Under the pieces are notes generated by a model. The model ran no database searches. It saw nothing but the letters and a program-made list of their open reading frames with translations, and was not told the DNA's origin. 64,000 bases of DNA, taken from positions 1-64,000 of the forward strand of contig CAINLJ010000223.1 in the NCBI GenBank assembly GCA_903850335.1, in the 5' to 3' direction. The position numbers and the translations under genes are program-made. Origin of the DNA: an uncultured Bacteroidia bacterium. GTDB lineage: Bacteria > Bacteroidota > Bacteroidia > Bacteroidales > Prolixibacteraceae. Positions 54,461 to 62,056 of this stretch are shown piece after piece. Numbering within the stretch: the stretch's first letter is position 1; every line of letters begins with the position of its first letter.

Positions 54461-56299
54461 ATGATTGGTACAAAAATCATTGAACTGGAAGAAGTAGCAA
54501 TCCGGTTTTCGGGTGACTCCGGAGATGGAATGCAGCTGACCGGAGCACTTTTTTCAGATACTTCGGCCTTATTTGGTAATGACATCTCCACCTTCCCCGA
54601 TTATCCTTCCGAAATAAGGGCACCGCAAGGGACAATAGGAGGGATTTCTGGATTTCAGGTACAATTTGGTAAGGGAAGAGTTACTACTCCGGGCGATTTA
54701 GCTCATGTTCTGGTAGCTATGAACCCTGCAGCAGTAAAGGCAAACGCAAGCTTTATGCGTCCGGGTGGTACAATATTTTATGATGTTGACAGTTTCAATC
54801 AAAAAAACTTTGATAAAGCAAAGTTAAAGACTCAGGATCCTTTCGAAGAGTGCAACCTTCAGGATTATTTTAAGGTGGCTGTCCCCATCACTACAATGAC
54901 CCGTGAAGCATTAAAAGATCTCGATATCGACAACAAGAGTATACTTCGGAGTAAAAACATGTTTGCTCTGGGACTTGTTTGCTGGGTATTTAGCAGACCT
55001 CTTGATTATATAGAAAACTTTATCAAGCGTAAATTTGCTAAGAGTCCAGTTGTAGTTGAGACAAACCTGAGAGTATTGCATGCTGGCTGGAACTATGGTC
55101 TTACTCTGGAGCACCTGACTCCCAGGTATATCGTCCATCCGGCTGAAATTGAAAAGGGCACCTACAGAAATATCAATGGTAACCTGGCTACTGCCTGGGG
55201 ATTACTTGCCGCTTCACAGAAGGCAGGACTTGATTTATTTATAGGTTCATATCCTATTACTCCCGCTACAGAAATCCTTCAGGCACTCGCCGACAGAAAG
55301 GATCTTGGGGTCAAAAGTTTTCAGGCTGAAGATGAAATTGCAGGAATATGTACTGCTATAGGTGCTTCATTTGCTGGGAAAATGGCTGTAACAACAACAT
55401 CCGGCCCCGGATTTGCACTTAAATCTGAGGCGCTTGGCCTGAGCGTGATGGCTGAATTGCCGCTCGTAGTCGTTAATGTACAGCGTGGCGGACCGTCAAC
55501 GGGATTACCAACAAAGACAGAACAATCTGACCTTCTTCAAACCTTATATGGACGTAATGGCGAGAGTCCACTTGTTGTGATTGCTGCATCCACACCTTCG
55601 GATTGCTTCCATTATGCGTATGTTTCAGCAAAAATTGCCCTGGAAAGAATGGTTCCTGTCGTATTGCTAACAGATGGATTTCTTGGAAATGGCTCTGAAC
55701 CATGGAAAATACCTGCATTTAGTGAGTTGCCATCTATAACTCCAAGAATGGCAACTGATCCCGGAACCTTTAAACCTTATGCCCGCGATGAAAAAACACT
55801 GGCACGCGAATGGGCTATCCCTGGAATGGATGGATTCCAGCACCGTATTGGCGGACTCGAAAAAGACGAAGCAGGGAATGTAAGTCATGACCCTATGAAC
55901 CATCAGAGAATGGTTGACATTCGAAATGAAAAGGTTAACCGCGTTGTCGAAATGATACCTGACATTGAAGTCGCAGGTGATCAGGAAGGTGATTTATTAG
56001 TCGTTGGATGGGGTGGCACCTTTGGATATGTTGATGGTGCAGTACGAGAGCTTCAAAATAAAGGAGTGACAGTGGGACTGGCTCATTTTAACTATATTAA
56101 ACCCCTTCCGGCAAATACGGCAGATGTTTTTGCCCGCTTTAAGAAAATTGTAGTATGTGAATTAAACCTTGGTCAGTTTGCCTCATATTTGAGAGATAAA
56201 GTGCCAGGATTTGTTTATAATCAATATAATAAAGTGCAGGGTTTACCTTTTACAGTGCAGGAATTAGTTGAAAATTTTGAAAAACTTCTGGAGGAATAG
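54461..56299 (+). CDS. korA: 2-oxoacid:ferredoxin oxidoreductase, fused gamma-alpha subunit
   Basis: 612 residues. The first 190 form the gamma domain (IRFSGDSGDGMQLTGALF, PQGTIGGISGFQVQFG). The rest is the alpha subunit with GSYPITPATEILQAL and GASFAGKMAVTTTSGPGF. It joins KorB to oxidise a 2-oxoacid, probably 2-oxoglutarate, to its CoA thioester while reducing ferredoxin, or to run in reverse. The label Kor rather than Por is by overall similarity and is not certain. It is separated from korB by two bases. Confidence 0.92.
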   Translation: MIGTKIIELEEVAIRFSGDSGDGMQLTGALFSDTSALFGNDISTFPDYPSEIRAPQGTIGGISGFQVQFGKGRVTTPGDLAHVLVAMNPAAVKANASFMRPGGTIFYDVDSFNQKNFDKAKLKTQDPFEECNLQDYFKVAVPITTMTREALKDLDIDNKSILRSKNMFALGLVCWVFSRPLDYIENFIKRKFAKSPVVVETNLRVLHAGWNYGLTLEHLTPRYIVHPAEIEKGTYRNINGNLATAWGLLAASQKAGLDLFIGSYPITPATEILQALADRKDLGVKSFQAEDEIAGICTAIGASFAGKMAVTTTSGPGFALKSEALGLSVMAELPLVVVNVQRGGPSTGLPTKTEQSDLLQTLYGRNGESPLVVIAASTPSDCFHYAYVSAKIALERMVPVVLLTDGFLGNGSEPWKIPAFSELPSITPRMATDPGTFKPYARDEKTLAREWAIPGMDGFQHRIGGLEKDEAGNVSHDPMNHQRMVDIRNEKVNRVVEMIPDIEVAGDQEGDLLVVGWGGTFGYVDGAVRELQNKGVTVGLAHFNYIKPLPANTADVFARFKKIVVCELNLGQFASYLRDKVPGFVYNQYNKVQGLPFTVQELVENFEKLLEE

Positions 56300-56301
56300 T
56301 A

Positions 56302-57318
56302 ATGGCCGAAATATTAGAATATACGTTAAAAGATTTTAAAAGCGAGAATGAAGTTCGGTGGTGCCCTGGTTGTGGCGATCATGCTGTTTTAAACTCAATC
56401 CAAAAAGCAATGGCCAACCTGGGTGTCCGGCAAGAGGATTTTGCTGTCATCTCCGGTATAGGTTGCTCATCAAGGTTTCCTTATTACATGAGTACCTATG
56501 GGTTTCATACAATACACGGACGTGCCGCTGCAATCGCATCCGGTGTTAAGTGTGCGAATCCGAAGCTAAATGTGTGGGAAATTACAGGCGATGGTGATGC
56601 ACTTGCAATAGGTGGAAATCACTTCATTCATTGTATTCGCAGAAATATTGATCTCAATATTATCCTTTTCAACAATAAAATTTACGGACTTACCAAAGGT
56701 CAGTATTCTCCGACATCCGAACGGGGGGCAATTACTAAGACTTCCCCGCAGGGGACTATAGAAAGTCCGTTTATTCCCGGACAGCTTATCCTGGGTGCAG
56801 GCGGGACTTTCTTTGCCCGTGCTGTTGATAATAATATTAAACACTCACAGGAGGTCTTTGAAGAAGCAGCTAAACACAAAGGAACTTCGGTTGTGGAGGT
56901 GTTACAAAATTGTGTGATCTTTAATGATGGCATACATTCTGAAATCTCTGACCCAAAGATGCGCGAGGAGCGACAGATTTTCCTTAAACATGGTGAACCA
57001 ATGATCTTTGGTAATAACAAGGATAAAGGTTTGATTTTCGATAAGGCAATATTAAAGGTTGCTACAATAGGTGAAAATGGAATTACACGGGATGATATTC
57101 TAATTCACGATGTTAAAGAACCTAATGGGTACGTCCATCAGCAACTGATAGGAATGAAATTGCCTGATTTTCCTGTTGCCATGGGAGTAATAAGAGCCGT
57201 TGAGGCTCCTGTCTATGATCAGATGATGGAGGAACAAATTGCAACAGTGAGGAGTAAGGCGAAGATAAAATCGATCGATGACCTGCTCACAAGTGGTAAT
57301 ACCTGGGTTGTAGATTAA
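56302..57318 (+). CDS. korB: 2-oxoacid:ferredoxin oxidoreductase beta subunit
   Basis: 338 residues. The thiamine pyrophosphate motif is GDGDALAIGGNHFIHCIRRN followed by LFNNKIYGLTKGQYSPTS. Cysteines that probably bind one [4Fe-4S] cluster are in WCPGCGDH, GIGCSSRF and EVLQNCVIF. There is no separate ferredoxin-domain delta subunit in the cluster, as is usual for two-subunit KorAB. Followed by a strong terminator at 57338. Confidence 0.94.
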   Translation: MAEILEYTLKDFKSENEVRWCPGCGDHAVLNSIQKAMANLGVRQEDFAVISGIGCSSRFPYYMSTYGFHTIHGRAAAIASGVKCANPKLNVWEITGDGDALAIGGNHFIHCIRRNIDLNIILFNNKIYGLTKGQYSPTSERGAITKTSPQGTIESPFIPGQLILGAGGTFFARAVDNNIKHSQEVFEEAAKHKGTSVVEVLQNCVIFNDGIHSEISDPKMREERQIFLKHGEPMIFGNNKDKGLIFDKAILKVATIGENGITRDDILIHDVKEPNGYVHQQLIGMKLPDFPVAMGVIRAVEAPVYDQMMEEQIATVRSKAKIKSIDDLLTSGNTWVVD

Positions 57319-57417: not shown

Positions 57418-60399
57418 ATGGAAAAATTTGAAAACATTTCTATATCAGAGGTATATAAACGAAGAAAAACCGACCGCGACATATTTCAGGAGCTCATGCC
57501 AAATAAAGTAAAAGAGGTACTTCTCTTTGCTACACTTTATGACTCCTATGCAATCGAACGGGAAGGCCAGTTTTCTGATAAAATTTTTGGTGAATACCTT
57601 CAGCTTAACCTCTATGCAGCCCCAAGATTTACAAGCGTTAACACGGAAGAAGACGTATTCCGGGTATTAAATACCAGACATTTCGATCTTGCAATCATCA
57701 TGGCCGGTGTAGATAAGGAGATGCCATTAAAGATTGTACAGGAAATTAATGACTCTAAACCACGTATTCCAATTTTATTACTGGTTAATAACAACAGCGA
57801 CGTTAAGTATTTCAAAGTTGCCTCGACTAACATTCCCGCTATAGACCGGGTCTTTGTATGGAATGGTAACTCAAATGTTTTTTTGGCCATGATTAAGTAT
57901 ATCGAGGACAAAAAAAATGTTGCCAGAGATACGCGCCAGGGAGGTGTTAGAATTATCCTTCTTGTTGAAGACTCTATCAAATATTATTCCCGTTATCTGC
58001 CCCTGCTCTTTGCAAGTGTTATGACCCAAACACAAGCATTAGTCTCAGATGAATCAAATGATGAACTTCATAAGATATTCAAATACAGAACGCGCCCTAA
58101 AGTCTTGTTGGTTAGTACTTTTGAGGATGCTTTGGAAGTTATTCACGAATATAAGGAGAATCTTTTATGTGTGATTTCTGATGTTAAGTTTTTGCGTGAT
58201 GGAGTCGATGATGAAGATGCAGGAATTGAACTGCTTAAATTCGTTAAGCAGACACTTCGGTACCCGGTTCCACTATTGCTTCAGTCTCATGATATTGCCA
58301 ATGCATCAAGAGCAGTTGAAATCCACGCAGGATTTATAAATAAGAATTCTGATACCCTTTCACACGATATAAGTGAATTTATTAACAGTAATCTTGGCTT
58401 TGGCGATTTTATTTTCAGGGATAAGGATGGAAAACAGATTGCTGTTGCCCGTAATCTCCATGAATTCGAAAGATTGATTTCTGAAGTGCCCGTAGAATCT
58501 CTTGTATATCACGGAAAGTCAAATGATTTTTCTACCTGGTTAGTGGCGCGTGGTGAGATTAATATTGCGGAGAGACTAATTCCATATAAGATTGAGGAGT
58601 TTGCAGATCCTTCCAAACTTCGTGACATTTGTAATAGTGTCTTCGCCGATGTTCATGAAAAAAGAAACCGGGGCAGAATAATCAATTTCGATCCACAGCT
58701 GCTTGGCGGTCACCGGTACATTGTTCGAATGGGTCTTGGTTCGCTGGGTGGAAAGGGCAGAGGTCTTGCTTTTATGTCAAATCTGGTTGAGAACATCGAC
58801 ATGAAAACGCTGTTGCCGGGAATAAATATACGAATGCCTGCAACAGCCATAATTGGTGCCATAGAATTTGATAATTTTATGGAAGAAAATGACCTCTATG
58901 ATATAGCGTACCATCAAACGGATTTTAATCTTTTGAATGAAAGATTTATTAAAGCCAGTCTTAGCAATTCTCTAAAGGAAAAGCTATTACAATTTGTTCG
59001 TCAGGTTAATTGTCCCTTGGCAGTAAGATCATCCGGCCTTTTTGAGGATTCATTACTACAACCATTCTCAGGGGTCTATTCTACTTACTTAATTCCCAAT
59101 AGTCATCCCGACGAAAATGTTCGTTTCGAGCAGCTTAGAACTGCTGTAAAACTTGTTTATGCTTCAGTGTTCAGTGATGAGGCCCGCGACTATTTCAGGG
59201 CTGTTAACTATAAAATTGAAGAAGAGAAGATGGCAATTGTGCTGCAGCCTGTGGTAGGAAGAGATCATAACGGAAAATTCTACGCAGATGTAAGTGGTGT
59301 GGCTCAATCTTATAACTACTATCCATATTCATATATGGAGCCTGAAGATGGATTTAGTGTTATTGCAGTAGGTTTGGGGCAGGCTGTTGTTGGCGGTGAA
59401 AAAGCATTCAGATTTTGCCCTAAATACCCTGCTCTAATAAACGGTTCAATATCTGACCAGCTGCGTGATTCGCAACGTGACTTTTATGCTGTCGACATGA
59501 TGCATAACGAGTTCGACCTCACTATGGAGGGTGAGATGGCAGCTATACGTAAATATAAAATCACAGAGGCTGAAAAAGACGGCATTCTCGAGCATTGTGC
59601 ATCGACATATAGTCAGGAAAATGATGATATTATTCCAGGTATTTCAATCAGAGGTCCACGGGTTATAAATTTTGCAAATATTCTTCAGTATAATTATGTG
59701 CCTCTGGCAGATACACTTACGTTGCTGTTGAAACTCTTTAAACAGGCAATGGGAGCCCCTGTCGAGATGGAATACGCCCTCGATCTGAATAACGGTGAAA
59801 ACGGTTGGCCAACTTTTTATCTGCTACAGTTAAAGCCGTTAATTCGAAGAGAAACAGGAATTACAATTGATCTGGGATCCATCGAAATCAAGGATCTGTT
59901 ATTAAGGTCGACAAAAGGGATGGGAAATGGCAGTATCAAAAACATTACAGATGTGGTATATGTTGATGTAAGCAAATTTGACAGAACTAAAACAATCGAA
60001 ATTGCCAGAGAGATTGCCGAGGTAAATAAGACTTTTAACATACTTAATCATCAGTATGTGCTCATTGGTCCTGGACGGTGGGGAACCAGAGACGAATTTA
60101 CCGGTATCCCGGTTAACTGGCAACAGATCAATAATGCGAGAGTCATAGTGGAAATTGGCTTACCCGAATATCCTTTGGAAGCGTCGTTGGGATCCCATTT
60201 TTTTCATAATGTCACATCGATGAACGTAGGTTATTTTTCGATTCCGGATATTAAAGGCTCAGATTTCCTGAATATTGATATTCTTGATCAGCAGGAACTC
60301 ATCTGGGAAGGAAAATATGTCAAACAAGTCAGATTTTCTAAAGAACTTGAAATATTGATGGATGGACGAAAGCGAACTGCTGTAATTAGGATCCTTTAA
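57418..60399 (+). CDS. Receiver-domain / PPDK-type ATP-grasp fusion protein
   Basis: 993 residues, probably cytoplasmic. Residues 30-160 look like a degenerate receiver: the phospho-site aspartate is replaced in DLAIIMAG. Residues 177-325 are an intact receiver with E184-D185 (LLVEDS), phospho-acceptor D255 (VISDVKF), S290 (LLLQS) and K309 (INKN). After a conserved linker (STWLVARGEINIAERL), residues 430-830 match the ATP-binding domain of PEP synthase and pyruvate phosphate dikinase: K446 in GGKGRGL, AVRSSGLFEDS, AVGLGQAVVGGEKAFRF and YLLQLKPL. The swivelling phosphohistidine domain and the PEP/pyruvate TIM barrel are absent, replaced by about 150 residues I do not recognise. Its reaction is unknown. 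It follows korB but beyond a terminator. Confidence 0.82.
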   Translation: MEKFENISISEVYKRRKTDRDIFQELMPNKVKEVLLFATLYDSYAIEREGQFSDKIFGEYLQLNLYAAPRFTSVNTEEDVFRVLNTRHFDLAIIMAGVDKEMPLKIVQEINDSKPRIPILLLVNNNSDVKYFKVASTNIPAIDRVFVWNGNSNVFLAMIKYIEDKKNVARDTRQGGVRIILLVEDSIKYYSRYLPLLFASVMTQTQALVSDESNDELHKIFKYRTRPKVLLVSTFEDALEVIHEYKENLLCVISDVKFLRDGVDDEDAGIELLKFVKQTLRYPVPLLLQSHDIANASRAVEIHAGFINKNSDTLSHDISEFINSNLGFGDFIFRDKDGKQIAVARNLHEFERLISEVPVESLVYHGKSNDFSTWLVARGEINIAERLIPYKIEEFADPSKLRDICNSVFADVHEKRNRGRIINFDPQLLGGHRYIVRMGLGSLGGKGRGLAFMSNLVENIDMKTLLPGINIRMPATAIIGAIEFDNFMEENDLYDIAYHQTDFNLLNERFIKASLSNSLKEKLLQFVRQVNCPLAVRSSGLFEDSLLQPFSGVYSTYLIPNSHPDENVRFEQLRTAVKLVYASVFSDEARDYFRAVNYKIEEEKMAIVLQPVVGRDHNGKFYADVSGVAQSYNYYPYSYMEPEDGFSVIAVGLGQAVVGGEKAFRFCPKYPALINGSISDQLRDSQRDFYAVDMMHNEFDLTMEGEMAAIRKYKITEAEKDGILEHCASTYSQENDDIIPGISIRGPRVINFANILQYNYVPLADTLTLLLKLFKQAMGAPVEMEYALDLNNGENGWPTFYLLQLKPLIRRETGITIDLGSIEIKDLLLRSTKGMGNGSIKNITDVVYVDVSKFDRTKTIEIAREIAEVNKTFNILNHQYVLIGPGRWGTRDEFTGIPVNWQQINNARVIVEIGLPEYPLEASLGSHFFHNVTSMNVGYFSIPDIKGSDFLNIDILDQQELIWEGKYVKQVRFSKELEILMDGRKRTAVIRIL

Positions 60400-60437: not shown

Positions 60438-61433
60438 ATGAAATCATTGAAAATTATTTTAGCGGTCATTCTAGTAATCCTTGCTGCTTATTTTGTTGGT
60501 CCGGAAATGCCGAAACCTATCCTGAATAAAAATTTACCCGTAATAAGTGGATCTGTATCCGATTATGTATCTCACATGGAGTCGCAGGAAAAGGTCCGTG
60601 CAGGGAATGAAGCGAAAATTATTTGGGCAAACGACTCCTCACATGCTGCAACGGAATTTGTGCTTCTTTATTTGCACGGTTTCTCTGCCAGCAGACATGA
60701 AGGATACCCTGTAAATGAGGATTTCCCTATGCGTTACAGATGCAATGCATATCTCGCCAGGTTAGCCTCCCATGGTCTTGAAACTGAAAACCCATTAATG
60801 GACATGACCCCTGACAGACTTTATGAGTCTGCTAAGCAAGCACTTGTAATAGCAGGTCAGCTAGGTAAAAAAGTGATTATTATGGGCACATCTACTGGCG
60901 GAACCCTTGCACTTCAACTTGCCGCTGATTTTCCGGATCTTGTAACCGGTTTGATTCTCTATTCGCCAAATGTGTCTATTAAGCAAAAGGCCTCCTTACT
61001 ACTTTCAAGGCCATGGGGATTACAAATTGCCAGAATTAATTTTGGTGGAAATTTTCGGGTTTTGTCTGATGATCCAACCGGTGAAATTTGCAAATACTGG
61101 TATTGTAAATATCGCGCGGAAGGACCTGTTTATCTCCAGCAACTAATTGATGTAACAATGAATGAGGCGGTATTTTCAAAGGTAAGGTGCCCCTTGTTTT
61201 TAGGTTATTATTTTAAGGACGAGGATCATCAGGATCAGGTTGTTGAGGTTAAATCTGCGCTGAAAATGTTTGAGAAGGTAAGTACTCCGCAATCCATGAA
61301 GCGGTCTCAGCCATTTCCTAATGCGGGTGCACATGTTATCGCGTGTGATCTCACATCCGGGAGTGTTTCCGAGGTTGCGGCTAAGACATACGAATTTGCA
61401 GAGGATGTTTTAAAAATGGTTCCGCACAAATAA
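60438..61433 (+). CDS. Alpha/beta hydrolase, probably membrane-anchored or exported
   Basis: 331 residues with an N-terminal hydrophobic segment (LKIILAVILVILAAYFVG). The hydrolase fold shows the oxyanion motif LYLHGFSASRHEG, the nucleophile elbow GTSTGG, and a late histidine in NAGAHVIACDL. An aspartate in YYFKDEDHQD is a plausible third member. Resembles carboxylesterases or lysophospholipases. The substrate is unknown. It starts 38 bases after the receiver/ATP-grasp gene, so the two are probably co-transcribed. Confidence 0.85.
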   Translation: MKSLKIILAVILVILAAYFVGPEMPKPILNKNLPVISGSVSDYVSHMESQEKVRAGNEAKIIWANDSSHAATEFVLLYLHGFSASRHEGYPVNEDFPMRYRCNAYLARLASHGLETENPLMDMTPDRLYESAKQALVIAGQLGKKVIIMGTSTGGTLALQLAADFPDLVTGLILYSPNVSIKQKASLLLSRPWGLQIARINFGGNFRVLSDDPTGEICKYWYCKYRAEGPVYLQQLIDVTMNEAVFSKVRCPLFLGYYFKDEDHQDQVVEVKSALKMFEKVSTPQSMKRSQPFPNAGAHVIACDLTSGSVSEVAAKTYEFAEDVLKMVPHK

Positions 61434-61708: not shown

Positions 61709-62056
61709 CTACTTCAATTTAAGTAATTCCAGCTTTAGCTCCTCAACCGCAATCTGGCATTGAACTTCAAAACGACTAACATGCTCAGCATAAGTATCTT
61801 CTTTTGTTTTGTTGATGGTAGCGATTTGTAATGATTTTAAATCATGACCCAGATCATCCATTCCCATGATCATCACCGATGATTTCGCTTTATGTGCTTC
61901 TTTACCAAGTTCAATAAAATTATTTTCATTAAGATGGTTGTTCAAATTGGTAATGAATTCAGGCACCTGTTCAATAAAAAGATCTATAATTTCCCGTATT
62001 GTTTGTGGATCACCTCCAGTGATGTTATGAAGGTATGCTAAGTTTGTATAAGCCAT
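61709..62056 (-). CDS. Stand-alone Hpt domain protein
   Basis: A helical phosphotransfer protein of 115 residues. The phospho-acceptor histidine is in EAHKAKSSVMIMGM, matching the HxxKSS pattern of Hpt domains. LAYLHNITGGDPQTIREIIDLF is the usual first helix. No other domain. It would carry phosphate between a histidine kinase or hybrid kinase and a receiver. No kinase or regulator gene is adjacent, but a receiver occurs in the 57418 protein 1.3 kb away. Confidence 0.9.
   Translation of the reverse strand: MAYTNLAYLHNITGGDPQTIREIIDLFIEQVPEFITNLNNHLNENNFIELGKEAHKAKSSVMIMGMDDLGHDLKSLQIATINKTKEDTYAEHVSRFEVQCQIAVEELKLELLKLK

Follow-up and report, generated by a model that had tools for sequence, protein, structure and literature searches.

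The window analysed here, a stretch of 64,000 nt from a 5.5-Mb Bacteroidales assembly whose closest named relatives are Mariniphaga, Prolixibacter and Sunxiuqinia (Prolixibacteraceae), carries at 57418-60399 on the forward strand a gene that we call Q, a label that we also use for its family. The predicted protein leads from a degenerate receiver through an intact receiver and a helical linker to an ATP-grasp domain of the pyruvate phosphate dikinase (PPDK) and phosphoenolpyruvate (PEP) synthase (PEPS) type, and ends in a C-terminal domain of ~180 aa. Directly upstream lie korA- and korB-like genes for a 2-oxoacid:acceptor oxidoreductase (Table 1). The full length of Q is aligned by 79 relatives with 59-85% identity, nearly all of which begin within the first five residues; because these proteins align end to end, we consider the start and frame of Q to be right. 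The source genome has only one gene of this type, and the family is found in 53 of the 61 genomes sampled from a Bacteroidaceae-like family and in many other Bacteroidota. Its current annotation is only 'PEP/pyruvate-binding domain-containing protein'. Neither the ATP-grasp superfamily nor enzymes controlled by a receiver are new; the literature that we searched yielded no description of the Q architecture, of its C-terminal domain or of its genomic association with glutamate dehydrogenase (GDH) and KorAB.

An initial annotation, made from the DNA alone, had read the protein as receivers fused to a PPDK/PEPS-type ATP-grasp domain with its key Lys and Arg, and this reading is confirmed by Pfam, by an AlphaFold2 model built on the 79 relatives (mean pLDDT 78), by Foldseek and by residue conservation. 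The Pfam family PPDK_N (PF01326) matches residues 442-811 with E=1.3e-33 and 117 bits (cut-off 27), and the best fold match of the domain in the Protein Data Bank (PDB) is rifampin phosphotransferase (RPH; 5hv1, E=9.7e-6). For a comparison of the core we used 122 relatives reaching down to ~28% identity, comprising 89 full-length proteins, 11 receiver-less forms of ~580 aa and 22 divergent forms, mostly of ~1060 aa. The catalytic residues K446, R537, E785 and Q804 are kept in 122/122, and they belong to a larger set that is invariant or nearly so (G441, G444-K446, R537-S539, E543, D544, E603, E785 and Q804). The domains that would complete the known reaction are missing, as had been proposed: Pfam detects in Q neither the phosphohistidine swivel (PF00391) nor the PEP/pyruvate TIM barrel (PF02896), and ~185 aa remain past the ATP-grasp domain. 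Elsewhere, the source genome encodes an ordinary 913-aa PPDK and PtsI. Q thus shares the PF01326 domain and its key Lys, Arg, Glu and Gln with PPDK and with the PEP synthase PpsA of E. coli, but lacks their swivel and barrel; instead, a pair of receivers precedes the ATP-grasp domain and a new domain follows it. RPH, despite the similarity in fold, keeps a His swivel and a rifampin-binding domain, neither of which is detectable in Q, and the NCBIfam model RIF_Ptrans_rph scores 15.6 bits on Q against a cut-off of 999.

The two receivers have different active sites. The first matches the Pfam Response_reg family (PF00072) at residues 71-129 below the cut-off (E=0.025, 15.2 bits), and one relative (L133) scores above it with 39.2 bits; the alignment places A38-T39, M95-A96 and W148 at the positions of the acidic pair, the phospho-Asp and the Lys. 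In the second receiver, strands 1, 3, 4 and 5 of the AlphaFold2 model end at E184-D185, D255, S290 and K309, respectively, which is the arrangement of a phosphorylatable receiver; among the full-length relatives, 89/89 retain D255 and K309, 88/89 S290 and 87/89 D185. Strand positions and conservation therefore bear out the earlier distinction between one degenerate receiver and one intact receiver with D255. Although all five active-site residues are conserved, the second receiver gives no Pfam match, probably because of the long insertion after strand 1, and architecture surveys based on Pfam will overlook it. The best receiver match in a Foldseek search of the PDB is PleD, a tandem-receiver protein (E=7.1e-6), and PorX is also among the matches. 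PleD, further tandem-receiver regulators and PorX of Bacteroidota (receiver plus PglZ) resemble Q in joining receivers to an enzymatic output, but the output of Q is an ATP-grasp domain with a new partner domain rather than GGDEF or PglZ. Behind the receivers, linker residues 343-387 give a weak, below-cut-off match to DUF5752 and carry an invariant YHxxxNxxSxW motif. The linker is not present in the 580-aa and 1060-aa relatives; its H365, invariant among full-length forms, is absent from the other forms and therefore lies outside the core. Given this absence from receiver-less relatives, the motif region is perhaps part of the coupling between receiver and enzyme.

Table 1. Gene Q, its domains and conserved codons, and neighbouring genes in the window.
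Feature	Position	Strand	Basis or remark
korA-like 2-oxoacid:acceptor oxidoreductase alpha subunit (TIGR03710)	54461..56299	+	conserved upstream neighbour in clade
korB-like 2-oxoacid:acceptor oxidoreductase beta subunit	56302..57318	+	ends 99 bp before Q
Gene Q: receivers, ATP-grasp and C-terminal domain	57418..60399	+	single ATG-started open reading frame, 993 aa
Degenerate (pseudo-) receiver, residues 31-170	57508..57927	+	AlphaFold2 beta/alpha order; sub-threshold Response_reg match
Intact receiver, residues 177-327, insertion after strand 1	57946..58398	+	AlphaFold2; PleD fold match; conservation
D255 codon	58180-58182	+	conserved phospho-Asp position
Helical linker, residues 328-417, invariant H365/N369/S372/W374	58399..58668	+	AlphaFold2; weak DUF5752 match
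PPDK/PEP-synthase-type ATP-grasp, residues 441-807	58738..59838	+	Pfam, Foldseek, conservation
K446 codon	58753-58755	+	invariant residue
R537 codon	59026-59028	+	invariant residue
E785 codon	59770-59772	+	invariant residue
Q804 codon	59827-59829	+	invariant residue
Unrecognised C-terminal domain, residues 811-993	59848..60396	+	AlphaFold2; conservation; negative family and fold searches
H927 codon	60196-60198	+	His absolutely conserved
Alpha/beta hydrolase, 38 bp downstream of Q	60438..61433	+	neighbour conserved only in nearest relatives
Stand-alone Hpt-domain protein	61709-62056	-	beside gcvT in Prolixibacteraceae, with or without Q nearby

The C-terminal domain had been described as an unrecognised domain taking the place of the missing ones. 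Unrecognised it is: no Pfam family, PF00391 included, matches at a meaningful level in any of 58 members, PDB sequences give nothing better than chance, Foldseek finds no PDB fold with E<=0.001, and the viral structures of BFVD yield no significant match. The description as a replacement, however, falls short, as the domain belongs to the invariant catalytic core and has an absolutely conserved His of its own. Modelled alone, residues 806-993 reach a pLDDT of 86 and a pTM of 0.85. The motif GPGRWGxxD (884-892; GxGRWGxxD in the form common to the family), E912, the motif SxG[ST]HFF with H927, and Y939 are invariant in 122/122, and the wider set of invariant or nearly invariant positions comprises N870, G884, G886-G889 (GRWG), D892, G896, E912, S923, G925, H927-F929 and Y939. 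Because the nearby H930, invariant in close relatives, is Gln in most of the others, H927 is the candidate catalytic His. Such a domain might represent a highly diverged swivel with H927 as the phosphohistidine, making Q an autophosphorylating PEPS-like protein minus the TIM barrel; the predicted order of strands and helices and an invariant [ST]H at a helix start after a strand indeed resemble the TSH/TCH motif of swivels. We looked for this diverged phosphohistidine domain with hhalign, using swivel profiles built from the PPDK and PtsI of related genomes and from PpsA of E. coli K-12. The C-terminal profile matched the PPDK, PEPS and PtsI swivels with a probability of 0.05-0.2%, whereas the positive control, PPDK against PpsA, reached 96.7%, and no swivel appeared among the best 50 of 620 PDB fold matches. 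A swivel hidden elsewhere in Q was rejected as well, the full-length profile giving a probability of 0.09%. Judged by comparison of sequence and fold, Q has no swivel domain, a conclusion that a solved structure could overturn, and we regard the diverged-swivel explanation as improbable.

Across the 122 relatives, the ATP-grasp and C-terminal domains form an invariant core. This pair also represents the minimal core, since the 580-aa forms consist of these two domains alone. That the catalytic residues of both domains are retained throughout, in receiver-less proteins and at ~28% identity alike, argues that selection maintains the core as an enzyme. The same observation bears on the idea of a catalytically dead scaffold, an energy-charge sensor whose ATP-grasp domain would only bind nucleotide while docking on a partner. 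ATP-binding regulatory domains do occur in many regulators, and a product-forming partner domain is not recognisable in Q; pure sensors, however, usually lose some of their catalytic residues, whereas K446, R537, E785, Q804, E543/D544, H927 and R887 are all invariant, so that a scaffold appears very unlikely. In contrast to the core, the input modules are exchanged. Some members of the window's clade carry between one (~1160 aa) and four (~1530-1560 aa) N-terminal 'WQYP' repeats, which from their sequence we read as GAF-like sensors although no Pfam model matched the region. The same domain constitutes the N-terminus of the 1060-aa paralogues, whose last domain is nucleotidyltransferase-like (NTP_transf_2). 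Such exchange of inputs around a fixed core suggests that the enzyme is regulatory.

To characterize the neighbourhood of the family, we searched the flanks of the Q loci of a 297-genome sample of the phylum and of 41 relatives for KorA, KorB, two kinds of GDH, and GltBD. In the window's clade, korAB lies upstream of Q in 28 of the 61 loci with enough upstream DNA, among them those of Prolixibacter, Sunxiuqinia, Marinifilum and Labilibaculum, and it is also found beside Q in two relatives of ~49% identity from other families. Two genomes of other families (G327 and G334) show the order korA-korB-Q(clade I)-Q(clade II)-gdhA, with a copy of 49% identity next to korB and a copy of 37% identity next to gdhA. 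In an IQ-TREE phylogeny, the KorAB-adjacent genes all fall into the window's clade, and 42 of the 44 GdhA-adjacent genes into its sister clade. The link to korAB made by the initial annotation is thus real but specific to one clade, and it represents a side branch of a wider family whose phylum-wide partner is glutamate dehydrogenase.

In the phylum sample, a GDH gene lies within 1.5 kb of 40 of the 49 full-length Q loci (31/39 genomes), with a median gap of 122 bp, compared to a chance expectation that we estimate at roughly 0.5% per locus, given that genomes of 3-5 Mb carry one to three GDH genes. At 35 of these 40 loci, the gene directly upstream of Q, in the same orientation, encodes GdhA. 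The identity of the neighbours as Glu/Leu/Phe/Val dehydrogenases is confirmed by Pfam, and in a Parabacteroides distasonis record the neighbour of Q is annotated as gdhA, NADP-specific GDH. Family-I GdhA is present in 40/40 genomes with Q-type genes as compared to 57/257 without them (Fisher p=5e-23, ignoring phylogeny). The shorter forms show a related arrangement: each of the nine 580-aa forms that have a GDH within reach stands directly after an NAD-type GDH and before the 1060-aa paralogue, in an operon-like array, and some Q fusions adjoin gltBD too. Adjacency is looser in the Bacteroidaceae-like family, where 13 of 31 loci (one of them a Phocaeicola record) have GDH within ~1.5 kb and several others have it 2-40 kb from Q on the same contig. 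Because the phylum-wide partner is GDH, Q seems tied to the node of 2-oxoglutarate and glutamate, where ammonia is assimilated, and not to 2-oxoacid oxidation in itself, this node being the factor common to the KorAB and GDH links.

An older observation on gdhA may concern the same family. For Bacteroides thetaiotaomicron, Baggio and Morrison reportedly found in 1996 that GDH activity in E. coli depended on a ~3-kb downstream segment supplied in trans, the transcript being unaffected. The title of their paper (pmid 8955404), as cited in PMC4539542, speaks of 'trans-acting gene(s) downstream of gdhA'. In two related Bacteroidales of the Bacteroidaceae-like family (L141 and L149), the gene that follows gdhA is a convergent Q, 88 and 301 bp away, a position and a size compatible with a factor of ~3 kb. 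With ~1000 codons fitting such a segment, a Q homologue may be the 1996 factor, as a candidate only. The reported requirement for a downstream gene with no change in transcript reads equally well as maturation, with Q folding, assembling or cofactor-loading GDH or KorAB in an ATP-dependent manner rather than switching them. We consider such a factor quite unlikely: the 57 genomes with GdhA but no Q imply that Q is not generally required for GDH activity, a receiver would be unusual on a housekeeping assembly factor, and GDH and KorAB have no cofactor in common.

Taking together the architecture, the conserved residues, the genomic association with GDH and KorAB and the swapping of input modules, we put forward Q as a phosphorelay-gated, ATP-dependent regulator that acts on a neighbouring enzyme of the 2-oxoglutarate/glutamate node, a reading that we hold tentatively, at slightly less than an even chance. 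The initial annotation had suggested a regulator or kinase; none of our results demonstrates a kinase. Q would accordingly belong to a Bacteroidota-wide family of regulatory enzymes, in which one ATP-dependent core is coupled to differing input modules: tandem receivers in Q, added GAF-like repeats in some members, and, in the 1060-aa paralogues, a sensor plus nucleotidyltransferase. Phosphorylation of D255 by a histidine kinase or an Hpt protein would shift the unit of pseudo-receiver, receiver and linker and thereby switch the core. ATP would be bound via K446, R537, E785 and Q804, and the core, with the invariant H927 most likely serving as phosphoryl carrier or general base, would use it to modify or activate the product of the adjacent gene, presumably glutamate dehydrogenase in most of the family and KorAB in the window's clade. 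A more specific version, in which Q is a receiver-gated ATP-grasp phosphotransferase whose undescribed carrier or catalytic domain (SxG[ST]HFF) covalently switches GDH or KorAB, forming a new output class of two-component systems, is possible but doubtful.

The main rival is a small-molecule enzyme. Here, the core would phosphorylate, ligate or activate a metabolite of the node (2-oxoglutarate, glutamate, pyruvate/PEP or a derivative) at a rate set by the receiver, and the association with GDH and KorAB would reflect co-regulation of a pathway rather than modification of an enzyme. The nearest ATP-grasp enzymes of known function (PPDK, PEP synthase and rifampin phosphotransferase) all have small molecules as their final substrates, and a common metabolite would fit the fact that KorAB, GdhA and GltBD share 2-oxoglutarate. 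Mere pathway membership, however, does not need the tightness of the observed linkage, with Q often ~100 bp from specific enzyme genes and its clade tracking the partner, and the sensor, receiver and nucleotidyltransferase modules indicate regulation; we therefore consider a small-molecule enzyme rather unlikely. Several observations weigh against Q as a regulator of its neighbour. Gene neighbourhood cannot separate action on an enzyme from action in the same pathway, and the reaction, the target, the direction of control and the gating by D255 are all inferred. The co-occurrence of Q and GdhA is confounded by phylogeny, and the 57 sampled genomes with GdhA alone count here as well. Furthermore, the one GdhA of the source genome is encoded on another contig than Q, korAB is not next door in 33 of the 61 members of the window's clade, and the B. 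thetaiotaomicron gene of 1996 is only a candidate Q homologue.

Control of ammonia assimilation and 2-oxoglutarate flux in Bacteroidota, which include dominant gut bacteria, is poorly understood, and the Q family offers a concrete candidate regulator with a testable active site. GlnE and GlnD are nucleotidyltransferases exerting covalent control in ammonia assimilation. Q may resemble them in the possible covalent control of an ammonia-assimilation enzyme, and its 1060-aa paralogue has an NTP_transf_2 domain; Q itself, however, lacks a nucleotidyltransferase domain and shares no homology with them. The 1996 factor, a candidate homologue, likewise adjoins gdhA in Bacteroidales. Should Q covalently switch GDH or KorAB as a receiver-gated phosphotransferase, it would correspond, in Bacteroidota, to the GlnE/GlnD/PII layer of nitrogen control and would explain the trans-acting gdhA factor. 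With the Q family, two-component signalling would also gain a new output domain, and the PPDK-type ATP-grasp superfamily a new domain. Q may be a missing regulator of ammonia and 2-oxoglutarate metabolism; that it represents a new class of nitrogen/carbon regulator we consider somewhat unlikely.

Among the remaining neighbours of Q, the alpha/beta hydrolase downstream is probably outside the Q system. No single cognate kinase gene is conserved beside Q in the neighbourhoods examined. Kinase/LuxR pairs lie close to Q at two loci (L143 and L135), but were rejected as partners as they are inconsistent across loci. The Hpt gene was likewise dismissed: its conservation near Q is confined to close relatives, and in other genomes it accompanies gcvT where Q is absent. 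A shared gene inserted between korB and Q was ruled out, as the insertions vary among genomes. In a Draconibacterium/Mariniphaga group without adjacent korAB, Q is followed by an apparent membrane-bound pyrophosphatase (775 aa; L078:9279-11609, L080:9156-11483 and L096:9169-11496) and by an apparent dihydroorotate-dehydrogenase-like gene.

The second family of ~1060 aa, in which a GAF-like sensor precedes PPDK_N, the same C-terminal domain and NTP_transf_2, is encoded behind an NAD-type Glu/Leu dehydrogenase at L136:805-3987 (-), L148:6646-9837 (+), L166, L167, L170 and other loci, often with a 580-aa form between GDH and paralogue. Forms of 1531-1562 aa with about four 'WQYP' repeats occur at L130:4106-8701 (+), L131:4197-8885 (+) and L132:3711-8363 (-), each followed by a gene for a LuxR-type response regulator; in L130, gltB-gltD lies upstream and gdhA downstream of the long form. 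Matches to the C-terminal domain in plasmid records came from Bacteroidota only, the genome searches being likewise Bacteroidota-centred. Two PLSDB 'plasmids' resemble pieces of chromosome rather than plasmids, namely a 277-kb record of Parabacteroides distasonis with valS, ruvC and rapZ (L150, NZ_OY725790.1) and a record of Phocaeicola massiliensis (L267, OY726056.1).

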